Source of the DNA: Arenimonas composti TR7-09 = DSM 18010
Lineage (GTDB): Bacteria; Pseudomonadota; Gammaproteobacteria; Xanthomonadales; Xanthomonadaceae
Reading direction: 5' to 3'
Assembly (NCBI RefSeq): GCF_000426365.1
Contig: NZ_AUFF01000006.1
Coordinates: forward strand, 1 to 64,000
DNA length: 64,000 nucleotides
Shown: positions 10,621 to 63,902 of the stretch, one piece after another
Numbering within the stretch: position 1 is the stretch's first letter
Layout of the letters: each line of letters starts with the position of its first letter
Program-made: the position numbers and the translations under genes
The notes under the pieces: generated by a model
The model's database searches: none
The model's input: the letters and a program-made list of their open reading frames with translations, nothing else
What the model was told of the DNA's origin: nothing

Positions 10621-10650
10621 GTTCGTAGTTCATACGAGGTACGAACTAGG
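10621..10650 (-). repeat. Heptad repeat array (GTTCGTA/CGAGGTA type)
   Basis: Four successive 7-bp units are readable: GTTCGTA 10621-10627, GTTCATA 10628-10634, CGAGGTA 10635-10641, CGAACTA 10642-10648. The TAG stop codon of the histidine kinase (10648-10646) lies inside the last unit. It is the same unit order as at 22758-22785. Confidence 0.75.
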
Positions 10651-12205
10651 GTTTCTGCAGCAACGCCGTCAACCGCCCGATGTCCGCCGGCTTCAGCAGG
10701 TGCGCGTCGAAGCCGGCCGCGGCGACGCGCTCGCGGTCGTCGGGCTGGCCCCAGCCGCTGAGGGCGATCAGCAGCAGGCCGTCGTTGGCGGGATCGGCGC
10801 GCAGGCGGCGGGCGAGTTCGCAGCCGTCCATGCCGGGCATGCCGATGTCGAGGATCGCCGCCGCCGGGCGGCGCCGGCCGGCGAGCGCGAGCGCCTGCAC
10901 GCCGTCGTAGGCGACTTCGGTGTCGGCACCGAGCACGTCCAGATACATCGCCAGCGTGTTCGCCGCGTCCTGGTTGTCGTCGACGATCAGGATCGGCCCG
11001 CGCAGCGGCGCGTCGGGCGCCGCGGGAAGGCCGTCGCCACGGGCCGTGCTCGCGAGCGCGGCCGCCTCGGCGAGCGGCAGTTCGACCACCATCTCGGTGC
11101 CGAGCCCGTCGCCGGCGCTGAACGCCTGCACGCGGCCGCCGTGCATCTCCACGAGGCTGCGCACCAGCGTCAGGCCGATGCCCAGCCCGCCCTGTCCGGC
11201 GCGCGAGGTGCTGCTGACCTGCACGAACATGTCGAACACGCGCGGCAGCATCGTCGCGGGGATGCCGACGCCGTCGTCGCGCACGCGCACGCGCACCGAA
11301 CCCGGGCCGCTCTCGGCGGGCACGCGCTCGACGCGGACCTGGATCCGGCCGCCACGCGGCGTGTATTTCGCGGCGTTGTTCAGCAGGTTCGCGAACACCT
11401 GCGTGAGGCGCACGCCGTCGCCCGTCAGCATCCAGTCGCCCGGCGCGATCTCGAGGCTGAACTCGTGCCCTTCCATCTTCGGCCGGCTCAGTTCGACCGC
11501 TTCCTCCAGCACGGTGCGCAGCGACAGCGGCTCGGGCCGCAGCGCGATGCGGCCGCGGGTGATGCGCGAGACCTCCATCAGGTCGTCGATCAGCCGCACC
11601 ATGTGCTCGACCTGCCGGTCCATCATTTCGAAGTGACGCTGCGCCGCGTCCGGCGGGAGGTCGGCGTGGCGCAGCAGCGCGAGCGCGGTGCCGAGCGGGG
11701 CGAGCGGGTTGCGCAGTTCATGCGCGAGCGTGGCCAGGAATTCGGTCTTGCGCTGGTCGTCCTCGCGCAGGCCGGCGAGCAGCCGCCGCATCTCGTACTG
11801 GCGCTGCCGCGCACGCAGCGCGCTGCGCACGGTGCTGACGAGGGCGGAGATGCGCAGCGGCCGTTCGATGACGGTGACGTTGGCGATGCGCTCCATCGCC
11901 TCGCGGATCGCGCCGGAGTCGGCACCCGGCCGTGCGAGCACCAGCACCGGCAGGTCCGACCACGGCTCCTGGCGGCGCAGCTGTTCCATCACGTCGAGCA
12001 TCGCCGGTTCGCCGAGAACCTCTTCGGCGAGCAGCAGCGTGCCGGCACCGGCCCGCATCTCGACGTCGATGCACGCCACGTCCGGGCACGCGAGCGCCGG
12101 GATGCCGGCCTGCTCGAGCACGCGCAGCGCCAGCGTCGCGTCGCGCGCGGTCGCGGTGCGCAGCAGGACCCGCGACTCCGCGGGATCCGGGGCCGGATCG
12201 CTCAT
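10646..12205 (-). CDS. Hybrid sensor histidine kinase with C-terminal receiver
   Basis: A 519-aa soluble protein without membrane segments. Residues 1-135 look like a degenerate receiver-like domain. HisKA follows with the phospho-acceptor His162 in [12 protein letters not shown], and HATPase_c has [16 protein letters not shown] (N box), DDGVGIP (G1) and [12 protein letters not shown] (G2). The C-terminal receiver (403-519) has Asp453 in [11 protein letters not shown] and Lys505. The ATG at 12205 is 28 bases after the stop of the KaiC-like gene, so the two are surely cotranscribed. It probably relays a signal tied to the KaiC-like ATPase; the downstream target is not in view. Its stop codon lies in a heptad repeat. 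Confidence 0.88.
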
Positions 12206-12233
12206 GCGTACGTCGCCGGTTCGGGGCGGGGCG

Positions 12234-13733: not shown

Positions 13734-13874
13734 GGATCGCTCCGAGAGGGTCACGCACTCCCCGCAGCGTGCGTGGAACCAGGGTAGCCAGCGCCGCATC
13801 GCGGACGCGTGAAGCCGGGTCGTGGCGGCCGGGCAAGCCTAGAATCGGACCTTTCCGCCCGCAAGGTACCCGCC

Positions 13875-15638: not shown

Positions 15639-15662
15639 GCGGGCACGTCCGCCTTCGCGGCC

Positions 15663-17980
<2,318 letters not shown>

Positions 17981-18094
17981 GGTCATCGCCTGCCGCGTGG
18001 CCACGCAGGCGCGGAAGCTGGCGCGTGCCCGCGTTTTCCGGCCGCGGCGGCCGGTGGTAGCCTCGGGGCCCCTGCCGCCTTCCGGAGTCCGCCG

Positions 18095-19033
18095 ATGCGC
18101 CCGTCGATCGCCCCGCTCGCCGCCGCCCTCGCCACCGCCCTGCTGCTCGCCGCCTGCGGCTCGTCGAACGCGCCCGACGCGACCATCAACGATGCGCCGG
18201 CCGACGCGCTCGCCGCGGCGGCGACGCCTGCCGAGGCCGCCGCCGCCGAGGAAGCCGCGCTGCGCGACCGCGAGACCGATCCGCTCGACGCGATCCTCGC
18301 CGGCGACTGGCGCGACCCGAAGAACACCGCCCGCGACACCTGGCGGCATCCGCGCGAGACGCTGGCCTTCTTCGAGGTCGGCGCCAGCCAGCGCATCATC
18401 GAGATCAGCCCGGGTGGCGGCTGGTACACCGAGATCCTGGCGCCGCTGGCGCAGGGCAAGGGCAGCTACACCGGCGTGATCAACGATCCGGCGGCGTTCG
18501 CCGACGAGCGCACGCGCAACTACTACACCCGCAACAACACCGCGCTGCGCGACAAGCTCGCCGCGCGCGCCGACGTGTTCGGAAACGCCCGCCTGGTCGA
18601 GATCGATCCGCAGGCGCCGGTGCTCGGCGAGCCGAGCTCGGCCGACGTCGTGCTGACCTTCCGCAACGTGCACAACTGGGTCATGGACGGTTACGAGCGG
18701 CAGATGTTCCAGGCCTTCTTCGACGTGCTCGCTCCGGGCGGCGTGCTCGGCGTCGTCGAACACCGCGCGGCCGCCGGGCGCACGCTCGAGGAAGTGAAGG
18801 AGAGCGGCTACCTGCCGGAGGATTACGTGATCCAGCTCGCCACCGACGCCGGTTTCGTGCTCGAGGAGAAGAGCGAGATCAACGCCAACCCGGCCGACAC
18901 CAAGGATCATCCCAACGGCGTCTGGACCCTTCCGCCCGGCAACAACCACGACGCCGCCGACGCCGCGAAGTACGCCGCGATCGGCGAGAGCGACCGCATG
19001 ACCCTGCGCTTCCGCAAGCCGAAAGACGAGTAA
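18095..19033 (+). CDS. Predicted lipoprotein with class I SAM-methyltransferase fold
   Basis: 312 aa. The first 22 residues are a lipoprotein signal (ALLLAACGSS, lipobox LAAC), followed by an Ala-rich linker. The remaining part resembles the predicted methyltransferase family COG4798: motif I is altered to IIEISPGGGWYTEIL, followed by DVVLTFRNVHNW and FFDVLAPGGVLGVVEHR. Family members usually are exported, so a SAM-dependent reaction in the envelope is doubtful; the fold may have been recruited for another purpose. The stop TAA (19031-19033) is part of a heptad repeat. Confidence 0.8.
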   Translation: MRPSIAPLAAALATALLLAACGSSNAPDATINDAPADALAAAATPAEAAAAEEAALRDRETDPLDAILAGDWRDPKNTARDTWRHPRETLAFFEVGASQRIIEISPGGGWYTEILAPLAQGKGSYTGVINDPAAFADERTRNYYTRNNTALRDKLAARADVFGNARLVEIDPQAPVLGEPSSADVVLTFRNVHNWVMDGYERQMFQAFFDVLAPGGVLGVVEHRAAAGRTLEEVKESGYLPEDYVIQLATDAGFVLEEKSEINANPADTKDHPNGVWTLPPGNNHDAADAAKYAAIGESDRMTLRFRKPKDE

Positions 19034-19115
19034 CGAGGGGAGAGGAACGAGTAACGAGTAGGAGCGGCTTCAGCCGCGATCCTCTCCACTCTTCGCTCTC
19101 CACTCTTTACTCGCC
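19026..19115. repeat. Heptad repeat inverted pair enclosing a REP sequence
   Basis: Left arm units in perfect register: ACGAGTA 19026-19032, ACGAGGG, GAGAGGA, ACGAGTA, ACGAGTA to 19060. The arm runs directly into a REP element (GTAGGAGCGGCTTCAGCCGC at 19058-19077). The right arm, 19081-19115, reads CCTCTCC, ACTCTTC, GCTCTCC, ACTCTTT, ACTCGCC, again in 7-bp steps and in reverse orientation. Confidence 0.8.
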
Positions 19116-19573: not shown

Positions 19574-19615
19574 GTTACTCGTTACTCGTTACTCTCCACT
19601 CGTTACTCGCTCTCC
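19574..19615 (-). repeat. Heptad repeat array overlapping ABC transporter 3' end
   Basis: Six units in register on the plus strand: GTTACTC three times (19574-19594), TCCACTC 19595-19601, GTTACTC 19602-19608, GCTCTCC 19609-19615. Read on the minus strand, this encodes the last 13 residues and the stop codon of the ABC transporter. Its 28-bp core is identical to both arms of the pair at 56352-56458. Confidence 0.85.
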
Positions 19616-21362
19616 CGGTCTGCAGCCGCCACAGCGCCGCATACGCCCCGCCGCGGGCGACGAGTTCGTCGTGCGTGCCGGATTCGACGATGCGCCCGGC
19701 CTCCATCACGTGGATGGCGTCGGCGTGGCGGACGGTGCTGAGGCGATGCGCGACGACGAGGGTCGTGCGCTCGCGGCCGGCGCGCGCCAGCGAATGCTGG
19801 ATCGCCGCCTCGGTCTCGTTGTCGACCGCGCTGGTCGCCTCGTCGAGCAGCAGGATCGCCGGGTCGCGGTAGAGCGCGCGCGCCAGGGCGATGCGCTGGC
19901 GCTGGCCGCCGCTGAGGTTGCCGCCGCGCTCGCCGACCGGGGCGTCGTAGCCGCCGGGCAGCGCGGCGATGAAGTCGTGGGCCTCCGCCGCGCGCGCCGC
20001 CGCCTCGATACGCGCACGGTCGTGGCCGATGTCGCCGTAGGCGATGTTGTCGGCGACGCTGCCGTCGGTCAGGAAGGGTTCCTGCGCCACATAACCGAGC
20101 CAGCCGCGCAGTGCCGCCGGGTCGAGCGTGGTGATGTCGGTGCCGTCGACGCGGATCGTGCCGCGCTTGGGGTCGAGGAAACGCAGCAGCAGCTTCAGCA
20201 GCGTGCTCTTGCCGGCGCCGGTACCGCCGACCAGGGCGACGGTGGCGCCGGCCGGCACCGCGAACGTCACCGCCTGCAGGGCCTGCCTTCCGTCGTAGTC
20301 GAACGCGACGCCGGCGAAGCTCAGCTCGCCGCGCGGACGTTTCGGCAGCTGGCCCTCGCCGCGCACCGGTACCGGCGTGTCGAGCAGGTCCATCACCCGG
20401 TTCACCGAGGCCATCGCGCGCTGGTAGAGGTCGACCATGTCGGCGAGCCGGGTCAGCGGCCACAACAGGCGCTGCGTCAGATAGACCAGCGCCGAATACG
20501 AACCGACACCGAGCTCGCCGCGCAGGGTCAGCACGCCGCCGTAGAGCAGGGTCGCGACGAAGCCGCAGAGGATCGCCATGCGGATCACCGGTGTGATCGC
20601 CGCCGAGAAGCGGATCGCCTCGGCATTGCGGGCGCGGAAACCGTCGCTGGCCTGGCGCAGGTGTTCGGCCTCGAAGGCTTCGGCGGTATAGGCCTGGATC
20701 GTCGCCATGCCGCCGAGGTTGTTGTTCAGCCGCGCCGACACCGTCGCCGCCGCCTCGCGCGCGGCGGCATAGCGCGGCGCCAGCCGCTTCTGGAACCAGA
20801 ACGCGCCGACCAGGATCAGTGGGATCGGCAGGAAGGCGAGGAAGGCCAGCTTCGCGGTCAGGAAGAAGAACACCGCGCCGACCAGCAGCGACGACACCGC
20901 GACCTGGATCAGGTCGTTGGCGCCGGTGTTGAGGAAACGTTCGATCTGGTTGACGTCCTCGTTCAGCAGGGCCATCAGCCGGCCGCTGCGCTCGCGTTCG
21001 ATCACCGCCGGTGGCAGCTGCTGCAGATGCCCGTAGGCGGCCTGGCGCAGCCCGTGCTGCAGTTCCTGCGCGAGGCCGCGCCAGCGCAGCGCGTACAGGT
21101 ATTCGAACAGCGATTCGAGCACCCACACGATGATCGTCAGCGCCACCAGCACGTAGAGCTGGTGCAGCGGTTCGGGAAAGCCGGCGCGGGCGAGGAAGGA
21201 GTCGCGCTGGTTGACGACGACGTCGACCGCGACGCCGATCAGCAGTTCCGGCAGGACGTCGAACACCTTGTTGAGCACGGAATAGAGCGAGGCGCTCGCG
21301 ACCGTGCGGCGGTGCGGACGGGCGAAGCCGGCGAGGCGGCGCAGCGGATGATCGGGCGACAT
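19575..21362 (-). CDS. ABC exporter, fused permease and ATPase (MsbA/MDR type)
   Basis: 595 aa. Residues 1-310 form a six-helix type-1 ABC transmembrane domain. The ATPase follows with Walker A GGTGAGKST, Q-loop YVAQEPF, signature LSGGQRQRIALARAL, Walker B ILLLDEATSAVD and H-loop AHRLSTVRH. It should work as a homodimeric exporter of lipid or drug-like substrates; the substrate cannot be told. I chose MSPDHPLRR at 21362, after AGGACGTCCC. The last 13 residues (ASNEWRVTSNE region) are encoded by a heptad repeat, which also gives the TAA stop, so the native C-terminus may have been shorter or different. Confidence 0.9.
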   Translation of the reverse strand: MSPDHPLRRLAGFARPHRRTVASASLYSVLNKVFDVLPELLIGVAVDVVVNQRDSFLARAGFPEPLHQLYVLVALTIIVWVLESLFEYLYALRWRGLAQELQHGLRQAAYGHLQQLPPAVIERERSGRLMALLNEDVNQIERFLNTGANDLIQVAVSSLLVGAVFFFLTAKLAFLAFLPIPLILVGAFWFQKRLAPRYAAAREAAATVSARLNNNLGGMATIQAYTAEAFEAEHLRQASDGFRARNAEAIRFSAAITPVIRMAILCGFVATLLYGGVLTLRGELGVGSYSALVYLTQRLLWPLTRLADMVDLYQRAMASVNRVMDLLDTPVPVRGEGQLPKRPRGELSFAGVAFDYDGRQALQAVTFAVPAGATVALVGGTGAGKSTLLKLLLRFLDPKRGTIRVDGTDITTLDPAALRGWLGYVAQEPFLTDGSVADNIAYGDIGHDRARIEAAARAAEAHDFIAALPGGYDAPVGERGGNLSGGQRQRIALARALYRDPAILLLDEATSAVDNETEAAIQHSLARAGRERTTLVVAHRLSTVRHADAIHVMEAGRIVESGTHDELVARGGAYAALWRLQTGRASNEWRVTSNE

Positions 21363-22021: not shown

Positions 22022-22765
22022 ATGGGCTTCAAGGATCATTTCTCCGGCCACGCGGCGATCTACGCGGCAGCGCGGCCGACCTATCCCGATGAACTGTTCG
22101 ACTGGCTGGCGGCGCAATGCCCGTCGCGGACCCTGGCCTGGGATGCCGGCTGCGGCAATGGCCAGGCGAGCCTGGCACTGGCCGACCGCTTCGACCACGT
22201 GCATGCCACCGACGCGAGTGCGGCGCAGATCGCCGCGGCACCGGCGCATCCGCGCATCCACTGGGCGGTGGAGCCGGGCGAAACGAGTTCGCTGGCGGAC
22301 GCCAGCGCCGACCTCGTCACCGTCGCGCAGGCCTGGCACTGGTTCGATCATCCGCGCGCGATCGCCGAATTCCGCCGGGTGCTGCGCCCCGGCGGGGTGG
22401 TGGCGCTGTGGACTTACGGCATCTCGCGGGTCGATGCGGCGGTGGATGCGGTGTTCGACCGCCTGTACGACGGCCCGCTCGGGCCGTACTGGCCGCCGGA
22501 GCGGCGGCATGTCGAGAACGGCTATCGCGAACTGCCCTTCCCGTTCGCGGAAGTCACCACACCGGCGTTCGCGATGGTGCAGCGCTGGACGCTACCGCAA
22601 TACCTGGCCTACCTGCGCAGCTGGTCGGCGAGCCAGCGCCACCTGGCGGCGACGGGCGTCGACGCGGTGAGCGCGATGGAAGCGGACTTCGCGGCCGCCT
22701 GGGGCGCGCCTGAGATGGGGCGCGAGGTGCGCTGGCCGCTCGGTCTGCGCGTTGGTAGTTCGTAG
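22022..22765 (+). CDS. Class I SAM-dependent methyltransferase
   Basis: 247 aa. Methyltransf_11-type domain: motif I is LAWDAGCGNGQASLAL, followed by HATDASAAQI, the HWF box AQAWHWFDHPRAIAEFRRVLRPGG, and a C-terminal half typical of bacterial YafE/Crg1-like methyltransferases. The substrate is unknown. It is probably cotranscribed with rluE. The TAG stop (22763-22765) and the last two serines are read from a heptad repeat (GTAGTTCGTAG). Confidence 0.87.
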   Translation: MGFKDHFSGHAAIYAAARPTYPDELFDWLAAQCPSRTLAWDAGCGNGQASLALADRFDHVHATDASAAQIAAAPAHPRIHWAVEPGETSSLADASADLVTVAQAWHWFDHPRAIAEFRRVLRPGGVVALWTYGISRVDAAVDAVFDRLYDGPLGPYWPPERRHVENGYRELPFPFAEVTTPAFAMVQRWTLPQYLAYLRSWSASQRHLAATGVDAVSAMEADFAAAWGAPEMGREVRWPLGLRVGSS

Positions 22766-22857
22766 TTCGTACGAGGTACGAGGTAGGAAAGCGCGCGCTT
22801 CGCGCGAGGAGGTAGCCGCTCACCGCGACTACCTCCTACCTCGTACGAACTACGAAC
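22755..22857. repeat. Heptad repeat inverted pair between convergent genes
   Basis: Left arm: GTAGTTC 22755-22761, GTAGTTC, GTACGAG, GTACGAG to 22782, then GTAGG. Right arm (reverse): TACCTCC 22830-22836, TACCTCG, TACGAAC, TACGAAC to 22857. A GCGCGCGCTTCGCGCG hairpin (22791-22806) lies between. Each arm contains the TAG stop codon of its adjacent gene. Confidence 0.85.
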
Positions 22858-23260
22858 TGGTCTTGCTCGCGGCCTTGCGCGTGGTCTTCTTCGCCGGCGA
22901 CTTCTTCGCGGCGGCGCCGGTCGACTTCGCCGTGGCGGTGGCCTTCTTCGCGACGACGTTGCGCGAGGTCTTCTTCGCCGGCGCGGCACCGCCGTCCTTC
23001 TTGCGCTTGTTGACCAGATAGACGGCGCCACCGACCGCGGCGAGCGCGGCGGCGGTGACCGCGGCGCCGACCGGGTGCTTGCGGACGGTGCGCACGGCGG
23101 CGGTGCCGCCCTTCTTCACCGCGGCGACGGCCGCCCCGGCACCGACGACGGCGCTGGCCTTGCTCGCCAGGTCGGAATTCTTCCAGGCCTTCTTCGCGAT
23201 CTCGCCGCCTTCGTTCAACTTGGTCAGCGCGGTCGACACCAGTTCCTTCGTCTTGCTCAT
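22850..23260 (-). CDS. Lys/Ala-rich histone H1-like protein with a central hydrophobic segment
   Basis: 136 aa. The N-terminal half (KTKELVSTALTKLNEGGEIA) is amphipathic and helical. A 20-residue hydrophobic stretch (VGAAVTAAALAAVGGAVYLV) follows. The C-terminal 50 residues are AKK-type repeats (APAKKTSRN, AAAKKSPAKKTTRKAASKT), resembling eukaryotic H1 tails and bacterial AlgP/Hc1-like proteins. It may bind nucleic acid while membrane-associated, but this is inference. The ATG at 23260 follows GGAGAATCC. The stop TAG lies in a heptad repeat. Confidence 0.75.
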   Translation of the reverse strand: MSKTKELVSTALTKLNEGGEIAKKAWKNSDLASKASAVVGAGAAVAAVKKGGTAAVRTVRKHPVGAAVTAAALAAVGGAVYLVNKRKKDGGAAPAKKTSRNVVAKKATATAKSTGAAAKKSPAKKTTRKAASKTSS

Positions 23261-25878: not shown

Positions 25879-25975
25879 CCCCCCATTGTAGGAGCGCCTT
25901 CAGGCGCGATGCTTTCCTGCGCTGCGCGCAGGAAGCAGGGCATCGCGCCTGAAGGCGCTCCTACAATGGGGGGAT
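25877..25975. repeat. REPIN occupying the full hrpB/tatD divergent spacer
   Basis: A near-perfect palindrome of 99 bp built from two inverted REP sequences (GTAGGAGCGCCTTCAGGCGC and complement), with outer arms ATCCCCCCATT...AATGGGGGGAT. It overlaps the start codons of hrpB (minus) and tatD (plus) at its two ends, leaving no other promoter DNA between them. Confidence 0.9.
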
Positions 25976-26795
25976 GGAACTCATCGATATCGGCGCCAAC
26001 CTGGGCCACGAATCCTTCGCCCACGATTTCGACGCGATGCTGGCGCGTGCCCGCACCGCCGGGGTCGTGCAGATGGTCGCCACCGGTGCCAGCCGCGAGG
26101 GCTCGCCGAAGGCGCTGGAACTCGCCCGCGCGCATCCCGGCCTGCTGTTCGCGACCGCCGGCGTGCACCCGCACCACGCCACCGAGGTCACCGCCGAGGG
26201 CGAGAACGAGCTGCGCGCGCTGCTGCGCGAACCCGAGGTGGTGGCGGTGGGCGAATGCGGCCTCGACTACTTCCGCGACTTCTCGCCGCGGCCGGCGCAG
26301 CGCCGCGCCTTCGAACGCCAGCTCGAACTCGCGGTCGAATGCGGCAAACCGCTGTTCCTGCACCAGCGCGACGCGCACGCGGATTTCGTCGCGATCCTGC
26401 GCCAGTTCGAGGGCCGCATCGGCCCCGCCGTCGTGCACTGCTTCACCGGAACGAAGGCCGAGTGCTTCGAGTGCCTGGACCACGACTGGCACATCGGCAT
26501 CACCGGCTGGCTCTGCGACGAGCGCCGCGGCCAGCATCTGCGCGAGTTCGTGAAGGACATCCCGGCGCACCGGCTGATGGTCGAGACCGACGCGCCCTAC
26601 CTGCTGCCGCGCACGCTGCGGCCGATGCCGAAGGACCGCCGCAACGAGCCGGCCTTCCTGCCGCATATCGTCGAGGAGCTCGCGAAGGACCGCGGCGAGG
26701 CGGTCGAGGTCACGGCCGCCGCCACCACCGCGACCGCGCGCAGCTTCTTCCGCCTGCCGCTGCCGACGCAACGGTCGGAACCGTCGGAACCGTAG
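25974..26795 (+). CDS. tatD: TatD-family metal-dependent deoxyribonuclease
   Basis: 273-aa TIM-barrel hydrolase. The usual TatD metal ligands appear, though the first site deviates: MELIDIGANLGHESF has N and H where many members have DxHxH. VAVGECGLDYFR, CGKPLFLHQRDA, VVHCFTGT and VETDAPYLLPR hold the remaining Glu, His and Asp ligands. It probably degrades DNA or acts in DNA quality control. The stop TAG (26793-26795) is contributed by a REP element, and the last codons form a short tandem repeat (CGGTCGGAACCGTCGGAACC), so the C-terminus looks shaped by repeat insertion. Confidence 0.92.
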   Translation: MELIDIGANLGHESFAHDFDAMLARARTAGVVQMVATGASREGSPKALELARAHPGLLFATAGVHPHHATEVTAEGENELRALLREPEVVAVGECGLDYFRDFSPRPAQRRAFERQLELAVECGKPLFLHQRDAHADFVAILRQFEGRIGPAVVHCFTGTKAECFECLDHDWHIGITGWLCDERRGQHLREFVKDIPAHRLMVETDAPYLLPRTLRPMPKDRRNEPAFLPHIVEELAKDRGEAVEVTAAATTATARSFFRLPLPTQRSEPSEP

Positions 26796-26909
26796 GAGCG
26801 CCTTCAGGCGCGATGCCCCTCACCGCGCCACCGTAGGAGCGCCTTCAGGCGCGATGCTTTCCTGCGCGGTGCGTAGGAAGAAGGGCATCGCGCCTGAAGG
26901 CGCTCCTAC
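26792..26909. repeat. REP cluster: one single REP plus one REPIN
   Basis: Three REP copies: direct at 26792-26814 and 26833-26855, inverted at 26887-26909. The last two form a REPIN whose spacer starts GCTTTCCTGCGC, as in the copy at 25912-25942. They lie between convergent tatD and the ABC permease gene. Confidence 0.88.
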
Positions 26910-26922
26910 AGGGGGGAGGGGG

Positions 26923-33025: not shown

Positions 33026-33067
33026 CTCGTTCCTCCTCTTTCGAGAAACGAGGAACGAGGAACGAGT
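33026..33067. repeat. Self-complementary heptad repeat after natB
   Basis: Six units in register: CTCGTTC 33026-33032, CTCCTCT, TTCGAGA, AACGAGG 33047-33053, AACGAGG, AACGAGT 33061-33067. The two halves are inverted copies and can fold into one hairpin. A GCGCTTCGCGC core follows at 33076-33086, as in the pair at 22755-22857. Confidence 0.8.
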
Positions 33068-33093
33068 GAGGGCCCGCGCTTCGCGCGAAAAAC

Positions 33094-33121
33094 AAAGAGC
33101 CCGGCCTAGGCCGGGCTCTTT
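33094..33121. terminator. Bidirectional terminator between natB and the TonB-like lipoprotein gene
   Basis: A 28-bp perfect palindrome, AAAGAGCCCGGCC followed by its complement with a TA centre. A-run and T-run at the ends make it work in both directions. It separates the convergent natAB operon and lipoprotein gene. Confidence 0.85.
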
Positions 33122-33170
33122 GCTTTCAGAGGGGGAGAAAGTGGTGGAGCCACAGGTTCGCGGCGAACCA

Positions 33171-33198
33171 CTCGTTCCTCGTTCCTCGTTTCTCGTTC
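33171..33198 (-). repeat. Heptad repeat array after TonB-like lipoprotein gene
   Basis: Four units: CTCGTTC 33171-33177, CTCGTTC, CTCGTTT, CTCGTTC to 33198 (minus-strand GAACGAG/AAACGAG). It begins six bases after the stop codon of the gene at 33205 and reads in its sense direction. Confidence 0.8.
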
Positions 33199-33204
33199 CT
33201 CGCC

Positions 33205-53452: not shown

Positions 53453-56353
53453 ATGTCCCCTCGCCCGAACCTCTCCGGACCGATCGCTGCCGGCCGCCTT
53501 CGCCGTGGCCTCGCCATCGGCCTGCTCGTCCTGGCCTCCCTGGTCGGCCCCGCTGCCGCCGAACCGCTGCCGGCCTCGCCGCTGTTGCAGCACTACGGCG
53601 TCGACCAGACCAAATCCGCGCCCGGCCATCACGGCGTCGCCATCGACCGCGACGGCGCCCTGCTGGTCGCCAGCGCCGAGGGCGTCCTGCGCTACGACGG
53701 CGTCGACTGGGAGCTGAGCGGACTGCCGGGGCGGTCGCGGGCACGCTCGATTGCGATCGGTGACGACGGCCTGGCCTACGTCGGCGGCGTCGACACCTTC
53801 GGACGACTCGCCCGCAGCCGCGACGGCGAACTGATGTACGAAGAACTGCTGACCCGGGCCAACCTGCGCGGCGCCCGCCGTCATGTCGGCATCGTCTGGA
53901 ACACGCTGCCGACCCGGACCGGCGTCTACTTCCGCGCCGAGAAGAGCCTGTTCTTCGTGCCCTACGGCGAAGGCCCGGCGCAGTCCTGGCCGCTCGGCGA
54001 CGAGGTACGCGGTTTCCACACCGCCGACGACCGGCTCTACGCCCGCGTCGAGGGCGTCGGTTTCACCGTCTTCGACAACGGCCGCTTCCGGCCGGAACCC
54101 GGCGCCGAGGTCTTCTCCCGCCAGCTGCTGGCCGGTGTGGTCGACCGCGGCGACTGGTTGCTGCTCGTCGGGCGCGAGGGCCTCTACCGCGCCGACGCCG
54201 AGGGCATCCACCGGCTCGACGGACCCGCCAGCGACGCGATCGCCGGCGTCCGCAGCTACAGCGTGCATGCGCTGGACGACGGCAGCTTCGTCGCCGGTAC
54301 CCTCGACGGCGAACTCCTGCGCGTCGATGCCGACCTGCGCCTGCGCGAACGCGTCGACCTCGGCGCTTTCGCGGTGCGCGACATGAGCGTCGACCGGGAG
54401 GGCGGCCTGTGGGCGGCGACCGAGGGCGACCTGGTGCGGCTGGCGATGCCCTCGCCCTGGTCGTGGCTGGGCCCGGTGCAGGGCCTGACCGGCACGCCGT
54501 CGGACTTCGAGTGGTACGACGGCGCGCTCTGGCTCGCGTCGAGCAACGGCCTGTCGCGGCTGCAACCGCGCACCGATGCGACACCGGTACCCGAAACCCT
54601 GCCGTGGACGAGCATGGAGGCCACCGCCCTGCACGCCAGCGATGCCGGCCTGCTGATCGGTGTGCGCGAGGGCCTGCTCGTGCTGGACCGCGGCGCGAGC
54701 CGGCCGCGGCAGTTGTTCGACAGCGGTTTCGACAGCGTCTACTGGCTGGTCGCTTCGCGGCACGACCCGGCCTGGGTCTACGGCCTGAGCAGCGAGCGCC
54801 TGCTGCTGCTGCACGAAGACGCCGGCCGCTGGACGCTGCGCGCGGCCCTGCCGCTGGATGGCCTGAACATCAACGGCATGGTCGAAGCCGGTGCCGGCGA
54901 GTTGTGGTTCGGCGACACCCGCGGGCCGGTGCAGCGCTGGCGACTGGACCTGGCCGCCGGCGCGCTCCTCGACCGCCGGACCTTCGCCGACGCCGACGGC
55001 CTGGCGCTCGTGCCGGGCAACGGCACGTCGGTATTCCGTCTCGACGAGCGGGTGCACGCGATCAGCAGCGAGCGCGGCTTCGTGCTCGACGGCGAACGCT
55101 TCGTCGCCGACGTCGCGCCGCCGCTGACCCTGGTCGACCGCCCGTGGGAATTGCAGGTCGAGGAGACCGCCCTCGGCGACTACGCCTACACCAGCCGTGA
55201 GCTGTGGCACCGCCCGGCCGATGGCGGCGACTGGCAGCGCCTGTTCCCCGGCGCCCAGGGCGCGGTCGGCTACACCTGGCTGCGGACCGGCCGCGACGGC
55301 GTGCTGCGGCTCGCCACGTGGAACGGCCTGCTGCAGTTCGACCCGGAGGAGCGGGCGGTGCCGTCACAGCCGCTGCGGCTGACGATGGAGCGGGTGATCG
55401 CCCGCGGCCCCGATGGCGAGACCCTGCGGCTGCCCTCCAGCAGCGAACCGATCCCGGTACGGGTCCCGGCCGGACACAGCCTCAACCTGCGCTTCGGCAT
55501 GGTCAGCATGGAAAGCGGCGCCGAGTTCCGCTACGTGCTGCACGGCGTCACCCCCGACTGGAGCAGCTGGACCGACCGCGACCTGTTCATCCGCGCATTG
55601 CCGCCGGGCGACTACGTGCTCGAGGTCGAGGCGCGCACCCGCAACGGCCGCCGCGCGCCGAGCATGAACTACCACTTCCAGGTCGAGCACTTCTGGCACG
55701 AACAGTGGTGGATGCGGGTCCTGCTGCTGATCGCCGCGCTCGCCACGCTGACCGCGGTGACGCTGTGGATCGTGCGCCTGCGCACCGAGCGCTACATCGC
55801 GGCCAACCGCCGCCTCGAGAGCCGGATCGCCGAACGCACGCGCGAACTCGAGGAACTCAATCGCCAGCTCGCCGAGCTGGTGACCGAGGACGCCCTGACC
55901 GGCGTGGCCAACCGCCGCGCGCTCGAGAACGGCCTGCGCCGCGAGTGGATGCGCTGCCTCGACCAGCGCCGGCCGCTGTCGGTGCTGATGATCGACGTCG
56001 ACAACTTCAAGGCCTACAACGACAGCCATGGCCACCTCGAAGGCGATCTGCAGCTCAAGGGCATCGCCCAGAAGCTGTTCGCCCAGCACGACCCGCAGCG
56101 CGAACTGCTCGCCCGCTACGGCGGCGAGGAGTTCGCCCTGCTGCTGCCCGGCGTACACGCCGACGACGCACTGCGCCGCGCCGAGCAGATCCGCCAGGCC
56201 GTCGCCGACAGCGCCATCGGCATGACCGTCAGCATCGGCGTCGCCGGCTTCGTCCCCGACGTCCAGGCCGAGCCGGACAGCCTGCTGCGCCGCGCCGATG
56301 CCGCCCTGTACGCCGCGAAGCGGGGCGGGCGGAATCGGGTCGAGGGCGAATAA
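53453..56353 (+). CDS. Diguanylate cyclase with periplasmic beta-propeller sensor
   Basis: 966 aa. After a signal peptide (about 1-35) come repeated short beta-propeller blades (Reg_prop type; for example GLWAATEGDLVRLAMP and VLRLATWNGLLQFDP). A Y_Y_Y domain follows (LNLRFGMVSMESGAEFRYVL to LEVEARTRNGRR), then one membrane helix (about 758-780), a coiled coil (RRLESRIAERTRELEELN) and a GGDEF domain with RYGGEEFALLLPG. It should make cyclic di-GMP in response to a periplasmic signal. The ATG is six bases after GATAAT. Its TAA stop lies at the edge of a heptad repeat. Confidence 0.9.
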   Translation: MSPRPNLSGPIAAGRLRRGLAIGLLVLASLVGPAAAEPLPASPLLQHYGVDQTKSAPGHHGVAIDRDGALLVASAEGVLRYDGVDWELSGLPGRSRARSIAIGDDGLAYVGGVDTFGRLARSRDGELMYEELLTRANLRGARRHVGIVWNTLPTRTGVYFRAEKSLFFVPYGEGPAQSWPLGDEVRGFHTADDRLYARVEGVGFTVFDNGRFRPEPGAEVFSRQLLAGVVDRGDWLLLVGREGLYRADAEGIHRLDGPASDAIAGVRSYSVHALDDGSFVAGTLDGELLRVDADLRLRERVDLGAFAVRDMSVDREGGLWAATEGDLVRLAMPSPWSWLGPVQGLTGTPSDFEWYDGALWLASSNGLSRLQPRTDATPVPETLPWTSMEATALHASDAGLLIGVREGLLVLDRGASRPRQLFDSGFDSVYWLVASRHDPAWVYGLSSERLLLLHEDAGRWTLRAALPLDGLNINGMVEAGAGELWFGDTRGPVQRWRLDLAAGALLDRRTFADADGLALVPGNGTSVFRLDERVHAISSERGFVLDGERFVADVAPPLTLVDRPWELQVEETALGDYAYTSRELWHRPADGGDWQRLFPGAQGAVGYTWLRTGRDGVLRLATWNGLLQFDPEERAVPSQPLRLTMERVIARGPDGETLRLPSSSEPIPVRVPAGHSLNLRFGMVSMESGAEFRYVLHGVTPDWSSWTDRDLFIRALPPGDYVLEVEARTRNGRRAPSMNYHFQVEHFWHEQWWMRVLLLIAALATLTAVTLWIVRLRTERYIAANRRLESRIAERTRELEELNRQLAELVTEDALTGVANRRALENGLRREWMRCLDQRRPLSVLMIDVDNFKAYNDSHGHLEGDLQLKGIAQKLFAQHDPQRELLARYGGEEFALLLPGVHADDALRRAEQIRQAVADSAIGMTVSIGVAGFVPDVQAEPDSLLRRADAALYAAKRGGRNRVEGE

Positions 56354-56458
56354 CGAGTGGAGAGTAACGAGTAACGAGTAGGAGCTCGCGCTTCGCTCGG
56401 TCGCGCCACAGGCGCGGGCCCTCACTCGTTACTCGTTACTCTCCACTCGTTCCTCGCG
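56352..56458. repeat. Heptad repeat inverted pair between convergent genes
   Basis: Left arm 56352-56379: units AACGAGT, GGAGAGT, AACGAGT, AACGAGT. Right arm 56424-56451 is the exact inverted copy, with one more unit CCTCGCG up to the stop codon of the next gene at 56459. Between them lies a GCGCTTCGCTC core. The same 28-bp order recurs at 19574-19615. Confidence 0.9.
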
Positions 56459-56710
56459 TTACGCTTTTCGGAGAACGCGCGCGATCGCGACCAGGATCAC
56501 CGCGCCGATGAAGGCGGTGATGAACAGGCCGATCTCGCCGCCGAAGCGCAGGCCGAACTTCGGCAGCAGCCAGCCGCCGAAGAAGGCGCCGATCACGCCG
56601 ATGACGATGTTGACGACGACGCCGTAACCGCGGCCCTTCATCACGACACCGGCGAGCCAGCCGGCGAGGGCGCCGATCAGCAGGAACACGGCGATCTGGA
56701 TCACGCTCAT
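56459..56710 (-). CDS. GlsB/YeaQ/YmgE-family small membrane protein
   Basis: 83 aa, three glycine-rich membrane helices (AVFLLIGALAGWLAGVVMKG, VVNIVIGVIGAFFGGWLLP, LFITAFIGAVILVAIARVL). The family, transglycosylase-associated or stress-response membrane proteins, is common and its function is poorly known. It lies ten bases after another small membrane protein gene on the same strand, probably one operon. Confidence 0.9.
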   Translation of the reverse strand: MSVIQIAVFLLIGALAGWLAGVVMKGRGYGVVVNIVIGVIGAFFGGWLLPKFGLRFGGEIGLFITAFIGAVILVAIARVLRKA

Positions 56711-56720
56711 CGGCAGCTCC

Positions 56721-56999: not shown

Positions 57000-57069
57000 G
57001 GGACACCCCGGGGTCGGTGGCGGCCAGTTTACCCGCGCCCGTGGCGCATGCCAGCGTCCCCTCGGCCGC

Positions 57070-58479: not shown

Positions 58480-58582
58480 CGCGTGTCCGCCGGTCCGGCC
58501 ACCGGGGCCGGGCGGGGGAATGATCGCAGAAGCGTCCGTGGTCGCGGCGGCAATGCGGCGCTGCCGGGGGGTGCCGGGCCGC

Positions 58583-59668: not shown

Positions 59669-59707
59669 GGTGGCGTCGATTCTGCGCGCTCGCGTCGCAA
59701 TGGATGA

Positions 59708-59822
59708 GAAACGAGAAACGAGGAACGAGAAACGAGTGGCGCCTGCGGCGGCGCGCTCACGCGCGAGTGAAGAGTGGGTTGCGCGACGCTTTCACTCGTT
59801 CCTCGTTTCTCGTTCTTCGCTC
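59708..59822. repeat. Heptad repeat inverted pair (GAAACGA type)
   Basis: Left arm 59708-59735: GAAACGA, GAAACGA, GGAACGA, GAAACGA. Right arm 59795-59815: CTCGTTC, CTCGTTT, CTCGTTC, then TTCGCTC (59816-59822), reaching the stop codon of the transporter. The centre holds GCGCGCTCACGCGCG. Confidence 0.85.
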
Positions 59823-61629
59823 AGGGCCAAAGCGGCCCCCCGAGCCAAAGCCACCGCGCCAGCCAGGCACTGGCCAGGCTGATGCCGACCGTCATCGGCA
59901 GGCCGACCTTCAGGAAGTCGCCGAAGGTGTACTGGCCGGGGCCGAGGATCAGCAGGTTGCCGTGGTGGCCGATCGGGGTCAGGAACGAGGCGACGGCGCC
60001 GAGCGCGATGCAGACGACGAACGGCGCCGGCGGCAACCCGAGGGCGGTGGCCACCGCGAACGCCACCGGTGCCAGCAGCACCGTCGTCGCCGCGTCCGAC
60101 AGGATCTGGGTCAGCAGCGCCGCCGCCCAGAACATCACCAGCAGCACCGCCAGCGGACTCCAGTCGGCGGCCACCCGCAGCACCTGGTCGGCGAACAGCT
60201 GCGCGGTGCCGGTCTTCTGCATCGCCGCGCCCAGCGGGATGACGCCGGCGATCATCACGAAGATGCGCACGTCGATCTCGCGGTAGGCACGTTCGATGTC
60301 GACGCAGCGCAGCAGCACCATGCCCACCGCACCGAGCAGGAAGGCGATCTGCGCCGGCAGCAGTTCGGTCGCCGCCAGGAAGACCGTCGTCAGCATCACC
60401 CCGATCGCCATGCCCGCCTTGCTGCGCAGCCGCGGCGCGCCGGTGAACGGCACCAGCATCAGGAAGGCGCGGTTGCCGGCGAGCGCCGCGAGATTCTGCT
60501 GCCGTCCCCACAGCACCAGCAGGTCGCCCTCGCGCAGCTCGACGTTCGCGAGCTCGCCGCGGAACCAGCCGTCCCGCCGCCACAGCCCGACCAGCACCAC
60601 GCCGAGCGTGCGCGCGAAGTCGATCTCGCCGACGCTGCGGCCGACGAACTCGGAATCGGACGCGACCACGGCCTGCACGATCTGTTCCTCGCCGAGCAGT
60701 TCGCTCTCGCGGCCATCGCGGCGCGCCTCGCCGTAGCGCGCGACGCTGTGCAGGGCCACGCCGGGCTCGTCCTTGATCGAGGCGATCTCGTCGGGCGAGG
60801 TGCGCACCAGCAGCACGTCGCCGGCCTGCAGCGGCTGCCCGGGCTCGCGGCCACGCCGGCGCACGCCGTGGCGCAGCCAGTCGACGATGTCCAGGCGGCG
60901 CGCGAAGCGCTTCTGGAATTCCGCGTAGCTGCGGCCGATCCACGGCGAGTCGGCCTCGATCAGCAGCTCGGTGTAGTAGTGGTCCAGGCGCAGGTAGTCG
61001 CTGTCGCCGCCACCGCCGGTGCGCTTGGGCAGCAGCCAGCGACCGAGCAGCATGCAGGCCATGCCGACCAGCACCAGGGTCGCGCCGATCGGCGTGATCG
61101 AGAAGATGTGCAGGCCTTCGCCGCCGTTGCGCTCGAGCAGGTCGGAGGCGAGCAGGAAGGCCGGCGCGCTGAACAGCGTCAGCGTCGTGCCCAGCGACGC
61201 CGCCAGCGACATCGGCATCAGCAGCCGCGAGGCCGGCAGGTTCTTGTCGCGCGCCAGTCGCAGCATGATCGGCAGCATCATCGCGGTGACCATCAGGTGG
61301 TGCGACACCGACGCGAGCAGGGCCACCGTCGGGATCGTCACCGCGATCGCCCGCCACTCGCTGCCGCCGGCGGCGCGCCCGATCATCGCGCCGATGCGGT
61401 CGGTGACGCCGGTCGACGACAGCCCGGCCGACAGCACGAAGACCCCGGCGACGATGATCGCCGGTTCGCTGGCGAAGCCCGCCAGCGCCTCCTTCGCGTC
61501 GAGGATGCCGGTGAGGGCGAGCGCCATCAGCGCCAGCATCGCCACCAGGTCGACCCGGAGTTTCTCGCTGATGAACAGCAGCAGCGCGCCGCCCAGGATG
61601 ACGAGAAAGATGAGCTGCTGCGGGTCCAT
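59821..61629 (-). CDS. SLC13/CitM-type transporter with TrkA-C domains
   Basis: 602 aa. An N-terminal half of about six helices, two soluble TrkA_C (RCK_C-like) domains in the middle (SDYLRLDHYYTELLIEADSP ... LLVRTSP; IVQAVVASDSEFVGRSVGEI), and another block of helices. This arrangement is known for SLC13-family permeases of the SAC1/YbiR kind, which may move sulfate or other anions, with the soluble part regulating transport. I took MDPQQLIFLVILGG at 61629 as start; an ATG at 61698 would add a 23-residue polar leader. Confidence 0.85.
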   Translation of the reverse strand: MDPQQLIFLVILGGALLLFISEKLRVDLVAMLALMALALTGILDAKEALAGFASEPAIIVAGVFVLSAGLSSTGVTDRIGAMIGRAAGGSEWRAIAVTIPTVALLASVSHHLMVTAMMLPIMLRLARDKNLPASRLLMPMSLAASLGTTLTLFSAPAFLLASDLLERNGGEGLHIFSITPIGATLVLVGMACMLLGRWLLPKRTGGGGDSDYLRLDHYYTELLIEADSPWIGRSYAEFQKRFARRLDIVDWLRHGVRRRGREPGQPLQAGDVLLVRTSPDEIASIKDEPGVALHSVARYGEARRDGRESELLGEEQIVQAVVASDSEFVGRSVGEIDFARTLGVVLVGLWRRDGWFRGELANVELREGDLLVLWGRQQNLAALAGNRAFLMLVPFTGAPRLRSKAGMAIGVMLTTVFLAATELLPAQIAFLLGAVGMVLLRCVDIERAYREIDVRIFVMIAGVIPLGAAMQKTGTAQLFADQVLRVAADWSPLAVLLVMFWAAALLTQILSDAATTVLLAPVAFAVATALGLPPAPFVVCIALGAVASFLTPIGHHGNLLILGPGQYTFGDFLKVGLPMTVGISLASAWLARWLWLGGPLWP

Positions 61630-61802
61630 GCGTGTCCAGGTCTGGCGCCGTCCGGTAGCGGGTCGCGCCGGACTGGTGGCGAGGGCAGCATTGTCCATGC
61701 CTTGCGCCGCTCGCGGGAGTGAAGGCCGCGACTTGCCCGCGTGCGCCGGGAGTCGCATCCTTCGCCGACGCCGCAAGCCGGCCGCCACAGGGGGCGGATC
61801 AG

Positions 61803-63809
61803 ATGCGCGATCACCGGTCCGCGAGGGCGCGGTTGCCGTGGTACGTCGGAGCACTGCTGGCCCTGCCGCTGGCTGCCGCCGCCGCGTGTCCGGACAGCGC
61901 CACCCGCGCCCGCCTGCGCCAGGACGCCGAGGCGCTGAATGCGCCCGGGATCGCCGTGGACGTCGCCCCGGAGCGGCTGCGCGCATCCTGGGAGGCCGTG
62001 CTCGCGGCGACCCGCGCCTGTGCCCCCGCCGATCCCCGCGCCGAGGCCGAGGTGCTCGCCGCCTGGGCCGAAGCGGCCCGCAGCACCGGCGACGCCGACA
62101 CCGGCTACGTGCTCGAGGAGCGCCGGCTCGCCTTCGCCCGCGAGCACGGGCTGGCCGACCACCGCGGCGATGCCGCGCTGCGCCAGGGCGCGGCCCTCGT
62201 CGCCCGCAGCGCGTTCGACCGCGCCCGCGAGCGCCTGCATGAAGCCCTCGCCGCCTTCGGGGAAACCGGCGACACCGCCCGCATCGCCGCCGCCCACTCG
62301 GAACTCTCGCGGCTCGACCGCCGCCGCGGCGACTACCTGCCGGCGCTGCGCCAGGAGCTGGCGGCCCTCGCGCTGCGGCGCTCGCTCGACCCACCGCCGG
62401 AGCTGTCGCGGTCGCTGCTCAACCTGGCGGTGCTGTACGAGCAGCTCGAACTGTTCGACGAGGCACGCCAGCACTACCACGAAGCCCTGCTCGCGGCCGA
62501 GCTCGAGGGTGTGCCGCTGGGCGTCGCCGACGTGCTCAACGGCTACGCCGGCTTTCTCAACGACTTCGGTGCGGCCGACGCCAGCGAGGCGCTGCGCATG
62601 GCCGAACGCGCGCTGGAGATCGTCCGCCGGCACGGCAATCGCGCGCGGATCGGCTCCTGCCTGCTGCAGGTCGGGCGCGCGCAGATGAACCTCGGCGACC
62701 GCACCGCGGCGGCGCAGAGCCTGCTGGCGGCCCTCGCCGAAGCCGACGCCGCGGCATCCGCGGCATTGCGCGCGCACGTGCAGTTCCGCCGCGGCGAACT
62801 GCTCGCCGCCGACGGCGACGTCGCCGGCGCCCTCGCCCTGGTCGAGGAAGCCAGGCGCGCCTACGAGCAGCAGGGCAACCGCCACCGCCTGATCAAGGTG
62901 CACGCGGTGCTGGAGCGCCTGTATGCCGCGCGCGGCGACAAGCTGGCGGCGCTGCAGTCGGGCCGCGAACACTACCGGCTGCGCAACGAGCTGCTCGGAG
63001 CCAACGCGACCGGCAAGCTCGGCGAACTGCTCGGCAACTTCCAGCTCGACGAGGAGCGCCTGCGCAGCGAACGTCTGCGCCAGGAGAACGCGCTGGCCGA
63101 GGCGGCCCTGCGCAGCGAACGCGAGATGCGCTCGCGCACGATCCTGCAGTCGGCGGCGATCGCGCTGGCGATGCTGCTGCTCGCCTGGCGGCACCTGAGC
63201 ACGCGCCGGCTCAATGCGCTGCTGGAAGAAAAATCGTCCGAACTCGAAGCCCAGCGGCAGCTGCTGGCGGACGCCAACCGCGAGTTGACGAACTTCTCCG
63301 ACGAATTGCTGGCGCGCAGCCGCATCGACGCCCTGACCGGTCTGGCCAGCCGCAGCCACGGCATGCAGCGCCTCGCCGAACGCCTCGCCGGCGACGACCC
63401 GCACTGGGCGCTGATGATCCTCGACATCGATCACTTCAAGGCGATCAACGATCGCTACGGGCACCCGATGGGCGACCAGGTGTTGATCGCGGTGTCGTCG
63501 GCGTTGCGCGAGACGGTGCCGGAAGGCGCCGAACTGGCGCGCATCGGCGGCGAGGAATTCATGGCGATCGTGCCCGATTTCCCGCGCGGCCTCGCCCGCG
63601 AACTCGGCGAGGCGATCTGCGCGCGCGTGCGCCTGCTGCGGATCGATCTCGGCGGCACGGTCGTGCAGGTCAGCATCAGCATCGGCCTGCTCGAGGTCGC
63701 CGAGGCCTCGGTGACGTCGGTCCGCGATGCCCTCGTGCGCGCCGACCGCGCGCTCTACGTCGCCAAGCGCGACGGCCGCGACTGCGTGCGGGTCGCCGCC
63801 GACGCGTGA
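61803..63809 (+). CDS. Diguanylate cyclase with N-terminal TPR sensor region
   Basis: 668 aa. Signal peptide (LPWYVGALLALPLAAAAAC), about 350 residues of TPR-like helices (LNLAVLYEQLELFDEARQHYHEALLAAEL), one membrane helix (TILQSAAIALAMLLLAW), a coiled coil and a GGDEF domain with RIGGEEFMAIVPD. It should synthesise cyclic di-GMP with a periplasmic TPR sensor, like TPR-GGDEF proteins of Xanthomonadales. Start ATG at 61803, after GCGGATCAG; upstream frame is unlikely. It is divergent from the transporter gene. Confidence 0.88.
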   Translation: MRDHRSARARLPWYVGALLALPLAAAAACPDSATRARLRQDAEALNAPGIAVDVAPERLRASWEAVLAATRACAPADPRAEAEVLAAWAEAARSTGDADTGYVLEERRLAFAREHGLADHRGDAALRQGAALVARSAFDRARERLHEALAAFGETGDTARIAAAHSELSRLDRRRGDYLPALRQELAALALRRSLDPPPELSRSLLNLAVLYEQLELFDEARQHYHEALLAAELEGVPLGVADVLNGYAGFLNDFGAADASEALRMAERALEIVRRHGNRARIGSCLLQVGRAQMNLGDRTAAAQSLLAALAEADAAASAALRAHVQFRRGELLAADGDVAGALALVEEARRAYEQQGNRHRLIKVHAVLERLYAARGDKLAALQSGREHYRLRNELLGANATGKLGELLGNFQLDEERLRSERLRQENALAEAALRSEREMRSRTILQSAAIALAMLLLAWRHLSTRRLNALLEEKSSELEAQRQLLADANRELTNFSDELLARSRIDALTGLASRSHGMQRLAERLAGDDPHWALMILDIDHFKAINDRYGHPMGDQVLIAVSSALRETVPEGAELARIGGEEFMAIVPDFPRGLARELGEAICARVRLLRIDLGGTVVQVSISIGLLEVAEASVTSVRDALVRADRALYVAKRDGRDCVRVAADA

Positions 63810-63814
63810 AAACA

Positions 63815-63902
63815 GTTCATGGTGCATACGAGGGATCGGCCGCAAGCCGCTAGAGTGTCCTTCCGACCGCTGCGGTTGCTGCCTCGTACGGACCACGAAC
63901 CG
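63815..63902. repeat. Degenerate heptad repeats between DGC and aldolase genes
   Basis: Left: GTTCATG 63815-63821, GTGCATA, CGAGGGA to 63835. Right (reverse): CCTCGTA 63882-63888, CGGACCA, CGAACCG to 63902. They match the GTTCGTA/CGAGGTA type with several substitutions, so this copy is older. Confidence 0.5.

Follow-up and report, generated by a model that had tools for sequence, protein, structure and literature searches.

Tandem repeats of 7 bp have been noted separately in cyanobacteria, Xanthomonas, Geobacter, and Beggiatoaceae, where they were explained by slippage, quadruplexes, or regulator binding. IVP/S23 is a widespread protein family to which no function has been assigned so far. 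Here, we analyzed a 64,000-nucleotide stretch of the genome of Arenimonas composti TR7-09 = DSM 18010 (the host; contig NZ_AUFF01000006.1, positions 1–64,000; hereafter the window), in which arrays of 7-bp units (heptads) recur. The arrays probably form the inverted arms at the two ends of a small mobile element that bears an IVP/S23 gene when complete. The host copies seem to be mostly gene-less derivatives of this heptad-armed IVP element, which is akin in gene and design to the intervening sequences (IVSs) of rRNA and lies outside rRNA. No paper on a link between IVP/S23 and heptad repeats was found in the open-access PMC literature. The link supplies an origin for the repeats and a likely role for the protein, which is predicted to bind the arms of its own element. 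It also turns the question of why the period is seven into a testable one and hints at a very small, transposase-free route of DNA spread.

The 23S rRNA IVS of Coxiella resembles the host element in its protein family, its size (∼0.4 kb), and its terminal inverted repeats, which form a long stem, and it has been termed a selfish element (PMC4990558); unlike the elements described here, it is located inside 23S rRNA. The terms heptad and tandem repeat are absent from the available text of that report. An rRNA location of IVP loci was rejected, with no Rfam match in 18 loci, and the host IVP copies whose flanks were read lie outside rRNA. The short tandemly repeated repetitive (STRR) sequences of cyanobacteria are likewise intergenic tandem heptads able to form hairpins, but they are not presented, in the part of the source at hand, as arms of a gene-bearing mobile unit (PMC2670836). 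The preliminary description of the window knew of no account of such repeats for this lineage and missed a related one: inverted pairs of GGGAATC heptamers have been described in Xanthomonas (PMC4692102). As in the host, the repeats of X. campestris and X. citri have 7-nt units, many arrays with at least four units, intergenic locations mostly closer to the 5′ neighboring gene, and 70 and 75 close opposite-strand pairs. They were treated as quadruplex-forming simple sequence repeats (SSRs), and the host units differ from GGGAATC in being degenerate and in a fixed order. The main text of that report, as available, makes no mention of xcc0516, four-helix, intervening sequence, or S23. Two IVP genes, one in a same-family and one in a same-order genome (L325 and L326), have arms that read GGGATTC/GGGAATC, the heptamer of PMC4692102. 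In Geobacter metallireducens, sites of five tandem heptads (consensus MTYCTGA), mostly in pairs, were drawn as strand-switching loops and interpreted as possible sites for integration host factor or HU, and IVP is unmentioned in the accessible portion (PMC2700814).

Miniature inverted-repeat transposable elements (MITEs) share with the host copies terminal inverted repeats common to a gene-bearing copy, but the gene-bearing partner here encodes IVP, not a transposase. REPINs, hairpins of repetitive extragenic palindromic (REP) sequences, and bacterial interspersed mosaic elements (BIMEs), associated with REP-associated tyrosine transposases (RAYTs), are short, dispersed, non-autonomous inverted pairs; the host elements differ from them in sequence design and linked gene and show no RAYT linkage. 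Avd, an accessory protein of diversity-generating retroelements, has a fold homologous to that of IVP (PMC10053308, in part), and the bAvd and Avd matches of IVP were weak, below the curated cut-offs. These retroelements differ in their reverse transcriptase, which the host lacks (see below).

Heptad arrays of the host mostly form inverted pairs

The 7-bp arrays of the window are real. Units in unbroken register, as claimed in the preliminary description, are present at all nine stretches listed there, those at 10621 and 63815 being degenerate only. At 18/21 self-matches, period 7 gave four arrays in the window and periods 4, 5, 8, 10, 11, and 13 gave none; periods 3, 6, 9, 12, and 15 gave one to four arrays each, which we put down to codons. 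The single array had been taken as the unit of the family, but this view overlooked that the unit is an inverted pair: the window arrays are mostly one half of such a pair, with a core of ∼20–180 bp between the halves.

Genome-wide pattern scans were run on the host assembly (3.16 Mb, 29 contigs). The type-1 pattern (GAGNRRM ×3) gave 134 + 153 matches and its reversed form 4 + 9, and the type-2 pattern gave 44 + 54 against 0 for the reversed control. The family is therefore dispersed, as had been proposed, and spread across the whole host genome beyond the 64 kb. Fifty-eight stretches around listed matches plus the window, a sample picked for elements and not random, contain 151 arms in 99 clusters. 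Fifty clusters consist of one + arm followed by one − arm, and the (−,+) order never occurs; the others are 33 and 14 single arms (strict pattern), one (+,+), and one (−,−).

A typical type-1a arm reads GAGTAAC GAGTGGA GAGTAAC GAGTAAC GAG-TGA; 1b arms use GAAAC/GGAAC, and type-2 arms read AGTTCGTAGTTCGTACGAGGTACGAGGTAG. Exactly four units are found in 54/82 type-1 arms belonging to pairs, and their order is mostly 1-2-1-1, so that the order reported for distant copies was confirmed. Both arms are of one subtype in 38/41 type-1 pairs. Two arms of the same element barely exceed random pairs of their subtype in similarity: for 1a arms, letters agree at 0.868 versus 0.864 (1593 of 5000 shuffles as high) and whole units at 0.537 versus 0.475 (216 of 5000), and 1b arms show no likeness above random (letters, 4064 of 5000 shuffles as high). 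Thus, the element seems to arrive as one two-armed unit that mutates afterwards, in agreement with the earlier idea that whole units are copied. Arm-to-arm correction in the hairpin by template switching was rejected, as the arms of one element share mainly their subtype.

Some arm pairs enclose an IVP/S23 gene

Host arms ∼340–520 bp apart enclose a small open reading frame that matches 23S_rRNA_IVP (PF05635) and TIGR02436 with E values of ∼1e-32 in two of the copies, and another is truncated. The scores are 112.2, 114.8, and (truncated) 41.7 bits for PF05635, with a curated cut-off of 33.8, and 110.7, 111.1, and (truncated) 42.1 for TIGR02436, with a cut-off of 24. Four arm pairs enclose an IVP gene, one gene being truncated and one pair having degenerate arms; these are the only gene-bearing copies among ∼100 sampled, and the remainder are arms round a short core or single arms. 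Type-1a and type-2 arms are common to gene-less and IVP-bearing copies, and the gene-less ones look like MITE-like non-autonomous derivatives.

The suspicion of a linked transposase, RAYT, or reverse transcriptase was not substantiated; the linked gene is the IVP/S23 four-helix-bundle gene. No transposase was found between arms, and the complete forms inspected hold no further gene. RAYT was rejected as the linked mobilizer, since no type-1 or type-2 array flanks the five Y1 genes of the host and RAYT presence does not track that of heptads. Reverse transcriptase was rejected as a partner, with no RVT_1 match in the host (G000) or in two other genomes of the genus, G023 and G004, and one each in G010, G018, G021, and G041. 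Among 27 genus genomes, IVP occurs in three (four copies in the host and one each in G023 and G004) and heptads in four (the same three and G041). Five of the six genus IVP genes have clear inverted heptad arms; those of L292 are degenerate. At L009:1910-2155, the IVP gene between type-2 arms has an apparent in-frame internal deletion, a possible step towards gene-less copies. The IVP elements L288 (G004) and L290 (G023) are apparently at the same place, the coding sequence around them being alike (ribonucleotide reductase, judged by eye), so this copy looks vertically inherited.

IVP genes and heptads across bacteria

IVP genes are tightly linked to heptad or octad arms in many genomes. IVP occurs in 62/398 Pseudomonadota genomes. 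Fifty IVP loci were taken, 30 as listed and 20 picked within the same class, order, and family; three of them ran into contig ends and were removed. A period-7 array (15/21 matches) lies within 250 bp on at least one side in 39/47 loci and on both sides in 21/47, and any other period from 4 to 13 is seen in at most 2/47. As controls, 48 loci of RAYT and GGDEF genes were taken, of which 42 were usable; all come from the host genus and hence from other genomes than the IVP loci. There, period 7 is found in 1/42 on at least one side and in 0/42 on both, and other periods in up to 7/42. When genomes were selected by the heptad pattern alone (the first 50 distinct ones among the matches listed), 44/50 encode IVP; the available baselines, not phylum-matched, are 62/398 for Pseudomonadota, 3/27 for the genus, and 0/14 for named controls. 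Thirty IVP loci of these genomes show period 7 in 18 and period 8 in 10, i.e. one or the other in 28/30, with other periods in at most three. At loci with heptads on both sides (both sets, n = 34), the inverted relation is stronger in 30 and the direct one in three, with one tie.

Plasmids hold 26 IVP-matching records, of which 12 were fetched, eleven of them cyanobacterial. Every one of the 12 IVP genes is flanked by an array on one or both sides, with period 8 only in two cases; in this set, L391 and L392 represent a single insertion, and gene bounds were estimated for L399. On plasmids of Nostoc, Calothrix, Anabaena, and others, IVP genes have STRR-like heptad arrays as their arms. Period 8 in place of 7 was observed at L346, L347, L348, L351, L354, L356, L360, L361, L371, L373, L395, and L399.

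The occurrence of IVP elements in clustered regularly interspaced short palindromic repeat (CRISPR) and conjugation gene clusters of plasmids is relevant to genome annotation. The L395 element (Picosynechococcus PCC 7003 plasmid) lies in a CRISPR-Cas cluster between cas10/cmr2 and cmr3, and the L388 element (Anabaena sp. 90 plasmid) lies in another between cas6 and cas4; in neither case is a CRISPR-Cas neighbor annotated as broken.

Filled and empty sites

Nine plasmid loci were queried for relatives without the IVP unit; L389 had no usable relative. Trichormus plasmid C (L398) and the Nostoc linckia/Tolypothrix plasmids (L400 and L401), 97–99% identical, differ by a 420 bp unit with arms at both ends, whose flanks share GTAATTAA with one mismatch. 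Stanieria L393 has 461 bp that L411 (96–99%) lacks, together with a 4 bp repeat, and heptad-like letters persist in L411, the empty copy. L396 has 413 bp more than L406 (89–91%), with a 5 bp repeat, and 425 bp instead of 7 bp in L405. Elsewhere, the unit replaces a spacer of 11 bp (L390), 36–42 bp (L391), 32 bp (L395), or 16 bp (L397) (lower identity). The comparisons of L388, where the other record has a different 273 bp, and of L397 with L413 are not clean. There is no single junction rule across these comparisons. The alignments indicate that an IVP unit of 410–520 bp can move, the plasmid differences arising by gain or by loss. L410 (Nostoc sp. C052 plasmid), which adjoins the same gene as L398, retains only the left arm and the start of IVP; it is a partly deleted copy and not an empty site.

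Relatives of the host lack the copies. No array was present at the 3′ end of any of 20 orthologues of the gene left of 56346, where the next called gene lies −4 to 206 bp away, and the type-1 pattern had no match in 24 same-genus genomes. Judged from these comparisons, the heptad copies are lineage-specific. A generic scan (17/21 matches) found 85 period-7 arrays in 515 kb of the host sample and two in 427 kb of 42 same-genus loci, one of the two being from G023. The type-1 pattern occurs in 3 of 16 same-order genomes searched, with 1, 2, and 8 + 3 matches; the last genome has 56 + 52 matches to the reversed pattern and thus has heptads of other letters.

A looser NAG pattern, applied to the 27 genus genomes, gave 109 + 122 matches in the host (reversed, 5 + 16), 56 + 54 in G023, 4 + 2 in G041, and 0 + 2 in G004. 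The other 23 had none, two of them showing one and three reversed matches. Many arms of G023 and G041 approximate NAG-GAAC-TAG-TGAA-GAG-GAAA-TAG-GAAC-TAG, i.e. the 1-2-1-1 order in different letters, and G023 has longer uniform arrays as well. This order, kept with other letters in G023, G041, and G004, is best read as homology and not slippage. In several relatives (L184–L189, L191, L192, and L196), the spacer between the convergent pair is longer where the host carries a heptad element; judged by eye, it seems to hold a small extra gene, perhaps DUF2256-like.

Placement at gene ends

Gene calling relied on a simple codon model, for which eight genes of the window served as the training set. 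Convergent genes surround 41/99 elements, as compared with 37/354 element-free gaps of the same stretches. Arms facing a gene 3′ end lie over the stop or within 10 bp of it in 80/101 cases, and those facing a 5′ end lie within 10 bp in 6/46. The arm overlaps the gene end in 40 of the 3′-facing cases, often by 6, 13, 20, 27, or 34 bp, lengths consistent with TAA stops in successive units. The elements thus provide stop codons to genes, a point relevant to annotation. In the window, the stop TAA (19031–19033) of the gene at 18095–19033, which has a weak methyltransferase match under the curated cut-off, falls in the first unit of an arm, and a lone arm forms the 3′ end of the ABC-transporter gene (19575–21362, −), with the gene stop at the arm end (Table 1). 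RNA hairpins are predicted to be strong for four window elements (z −5.5 to −13.0), and two cores, 33067–33170 of the window and one at L040, hold a terminator-like hairpin. Element copies may persist mostly just 3′ of stop codons because this would be the least harmful location.

Proposed mechanism

Two diverged plasmid IVP pairs, both including L397, gave ratios of nonsynonymous to synonymous substitution of 0.14 and 0.10 (two close pairs were uninformative and one was unreadable), and IVP thus seems to be kept by purifying selection. The nearest solved structure is XCC0516 (2gsc), with five chains, described as a toroidal pentamer (PMC4990558, in part). In the arrays of the 39 period-7 IVP loci, read on the strand running from outside inwards, the best-kept dinucleotide is AG in phase (0.649; permuting the columns gave 0.543 ± 0.038, and none of 1000 permutations reached the observed value). 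AG is ahead of GA at 22 loci, behind at nine, and tied at eight. The number of units in IVP-flanking arrays peaks at four (32/64).

Based on the ring structure, the AG phase, and the four-unit peak, we propose a ring that reads some five NAG triplets in each arm. The complete element is ∼0.4–0.6 kb long and consists of a heptad arm, one IVP/S23 gene, and an inverted heptad arm. The arms would be recognized by IVP on their G-rich strand, as RNA or single-stranded DNA, where a NAG triplet recurs every 7 nt; a canonical arm has five such triplets, so that each subunit of the pentameric ring would take one. This would resemble the TRAP ring, which binds GAG/UAG triplets. DNA cutting and joining may be left to an enzyme that is supplied by the host or acts in trans. 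Extended to a transposase-free class of mobile elements in many bacterial phyla, in which a pentameric IVP ring is wrapped by the G-rich strand of the arms with one NAG per subunit and 7 (or 8) nt, the proposal is tentative, and we hold it with less than even confidence. If true, the ring spacing would account for the strictness of the 7-nt period, the variable letters between one AG and the next, and the four-unit arms, as well as for the origin of the STRR and GGGAATC repeats.

Several observations speak against an IVP-borne mobile element or its triplet reading. Eight of the 47 Pseudomonadota IVP loci have no period-7 array. Using a small profile, an IVP match was found in only 2/118 heptad-pattern loci among the matches listed, so most arrays sit away from any IVP gene; for this reason, the reverse test was made on the flanks of IVP genes. 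G041 has heptads and a reverse transcriptase and no IVP, gene-less cores are unlike pieces of the IVP gene except at L009/L293, and the junctions are non-uniform (8 bp with one mismatch, 5 bp, 4 bp, or a replaced spacer of 7–42 bp). To our knowledge, IVP has no known catalytic site. As to the triplets, period-8 arrays keep TT or GG better than AG, AG in the host arrays is hardly higher than GA (0.76 versus 0.72), and AG is best or co-best in 31/64 arrays. In the available account of Xanthomonas, two species share the gene neighbors of 90% of the heptamer repeats, and an association with mobile elements is generally lacking (PMC4692102), which indicates slow turnover in that genus.

Alternative explanations

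The arrays could be SSRs grown by polymerase slippage at gene ends, with IVP adjacent by chance or through a common spacer location. A 7-nt polymerase contact is an idea cited in PMC4692102 (as far as available), and long arrays of near-identical units do exist in some lineages (G036, L296, and L329). Such arrays are unlike the host arms, most of which have the same unit number and order, common across species, and the free variation of unit number that marks slippage in STRRs and SSRs was not seen, 54/82 type-1 arms having four units. Together with close pairs inverted in one sense only, IVP flanks with period 7 or 8 and few arrays of other periods, and units present or absent as a block in plasmids, this makes slippage very improbable. 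Hardly credible, too, is the idea that the arms are enlarged REP heads and the elements REPINs moved by RAYT (Y1 transposase). Several element cores are GTAG REPs, the heptad register extends to the REP head in a number of them (by eye), and one of the five host Y1 transposases is flanked by GTAG REPs; but no type-1 or type-2 array directly flanks any of the five genes, the only one in those loci being a type-2 arm ∼1.4 kb from one gene, and RAYTs occur in 21/27 genus genomes versus heptads in four.

A rather unlikely explanation, but one with real points in its favor, is that the elements are domesticated bidirectional terminators or RNA-processing hairpins at gene ends, mobility being only their origin. 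The strong predicted hairpins, the terminator-like hairpins in two cores, the enrichment between convergent genes, and the closeness of arms to stops all fit this; the lineage-specific copies and the differing length and sequence of the cores do not. We also consider it unlikely that IVP is a passenger and that another, unlinked enzyme moves any DNA flanked by heptad arms. Gene-less copies are far more numerous than gene-bearing ones, and IVP is not known to have a catalytic site, but IVP presence closely tracks heptad presence in the genus, purifying selection acts on diverged IVP copies, and no other gene was seen between the arms of complete forms. An element that bears IVP when complete and has heptad arms at its ends therefore remains the preferred reading.

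Features of the window and other repeats

Table 1. Heptad-armed elements and single arms in the window
Feature	Position	Strand	Basis or context
Type-2 element, short and degenerate (GTTCGTA/CGAGGTA units, inverted pair)	10621..10647		Sequence; between convergent genes, IDH (+) ending at 10571 and histidine kinase (−) ending at 10646
Left type-1 arm	19026..19058	+	Sequence, pattern
Core, single GTAG-type REP GTAGGAGCGGCTTCAGCCGCGA	19059..19081	+	Sequence
Right type-1 arm	19082..19112	−	Sequence, pattern
Lone type-1 arm	19578..19608	−	Pattern
Left type-2 arm	22751..22786	+	Encloses stop of methyltransferase gene (ends 22765)
Right type-2 arm	22829..22858	−	97% complementary to arm 22751..22786
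Left type-1b arm	33043..33066	+	Between convergent ABC2 permease (+) and TonB (−) genes
Core with intrinsic-terminator-like hairpin AAAGAGCCCGGCC...GGGCTCTTT	33067..33170		Sequence
Right type-1b arm	33171..33201	−	Pattern
Left type-1a arm	56346..56378	+	Outermost unit holds stop of gene 53453–56353 (+)
GC-rich core hairpin	56379..56424		Sequence, folding
Right type-1a arm	56425..56457	−	Adjoins stop of Transgly_assoc gene (56459–56710, −)
Left type-1b arm	59706..59736	+	Sequence, pattern
Right type-1b arm	59795..59820	−	Abuts stop of CitMHS gene (59821–61629, −)
Type-2 inverted pair, degenerate	63815..63902		3′ of GGDEF gene (ends 63809)

GTAG-type REP inverted pairs (GTAGGAGCGCCTTCAGGCGCGAT) form a separate family, present in the window at 7189–7281, 25855–25997, and 26792–26919; the host RAYT at C2:479978 (L179) is the one flanked by such REPs. 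For REPs that adjoin a heptad arm, the head (GTAGGAG or a variant), judged by eye, is in heptad register at L006, L009, L012 (− arm), L019, L026, L044, L052, and 19026–19081 of the window, and out of register at L008, L012 (+ arm), L014, L047, and L050. At L177, an unrelated inverted repeat, GTGTCAGAGACAGTT, is present on both sides of another Y1 transposase gene.

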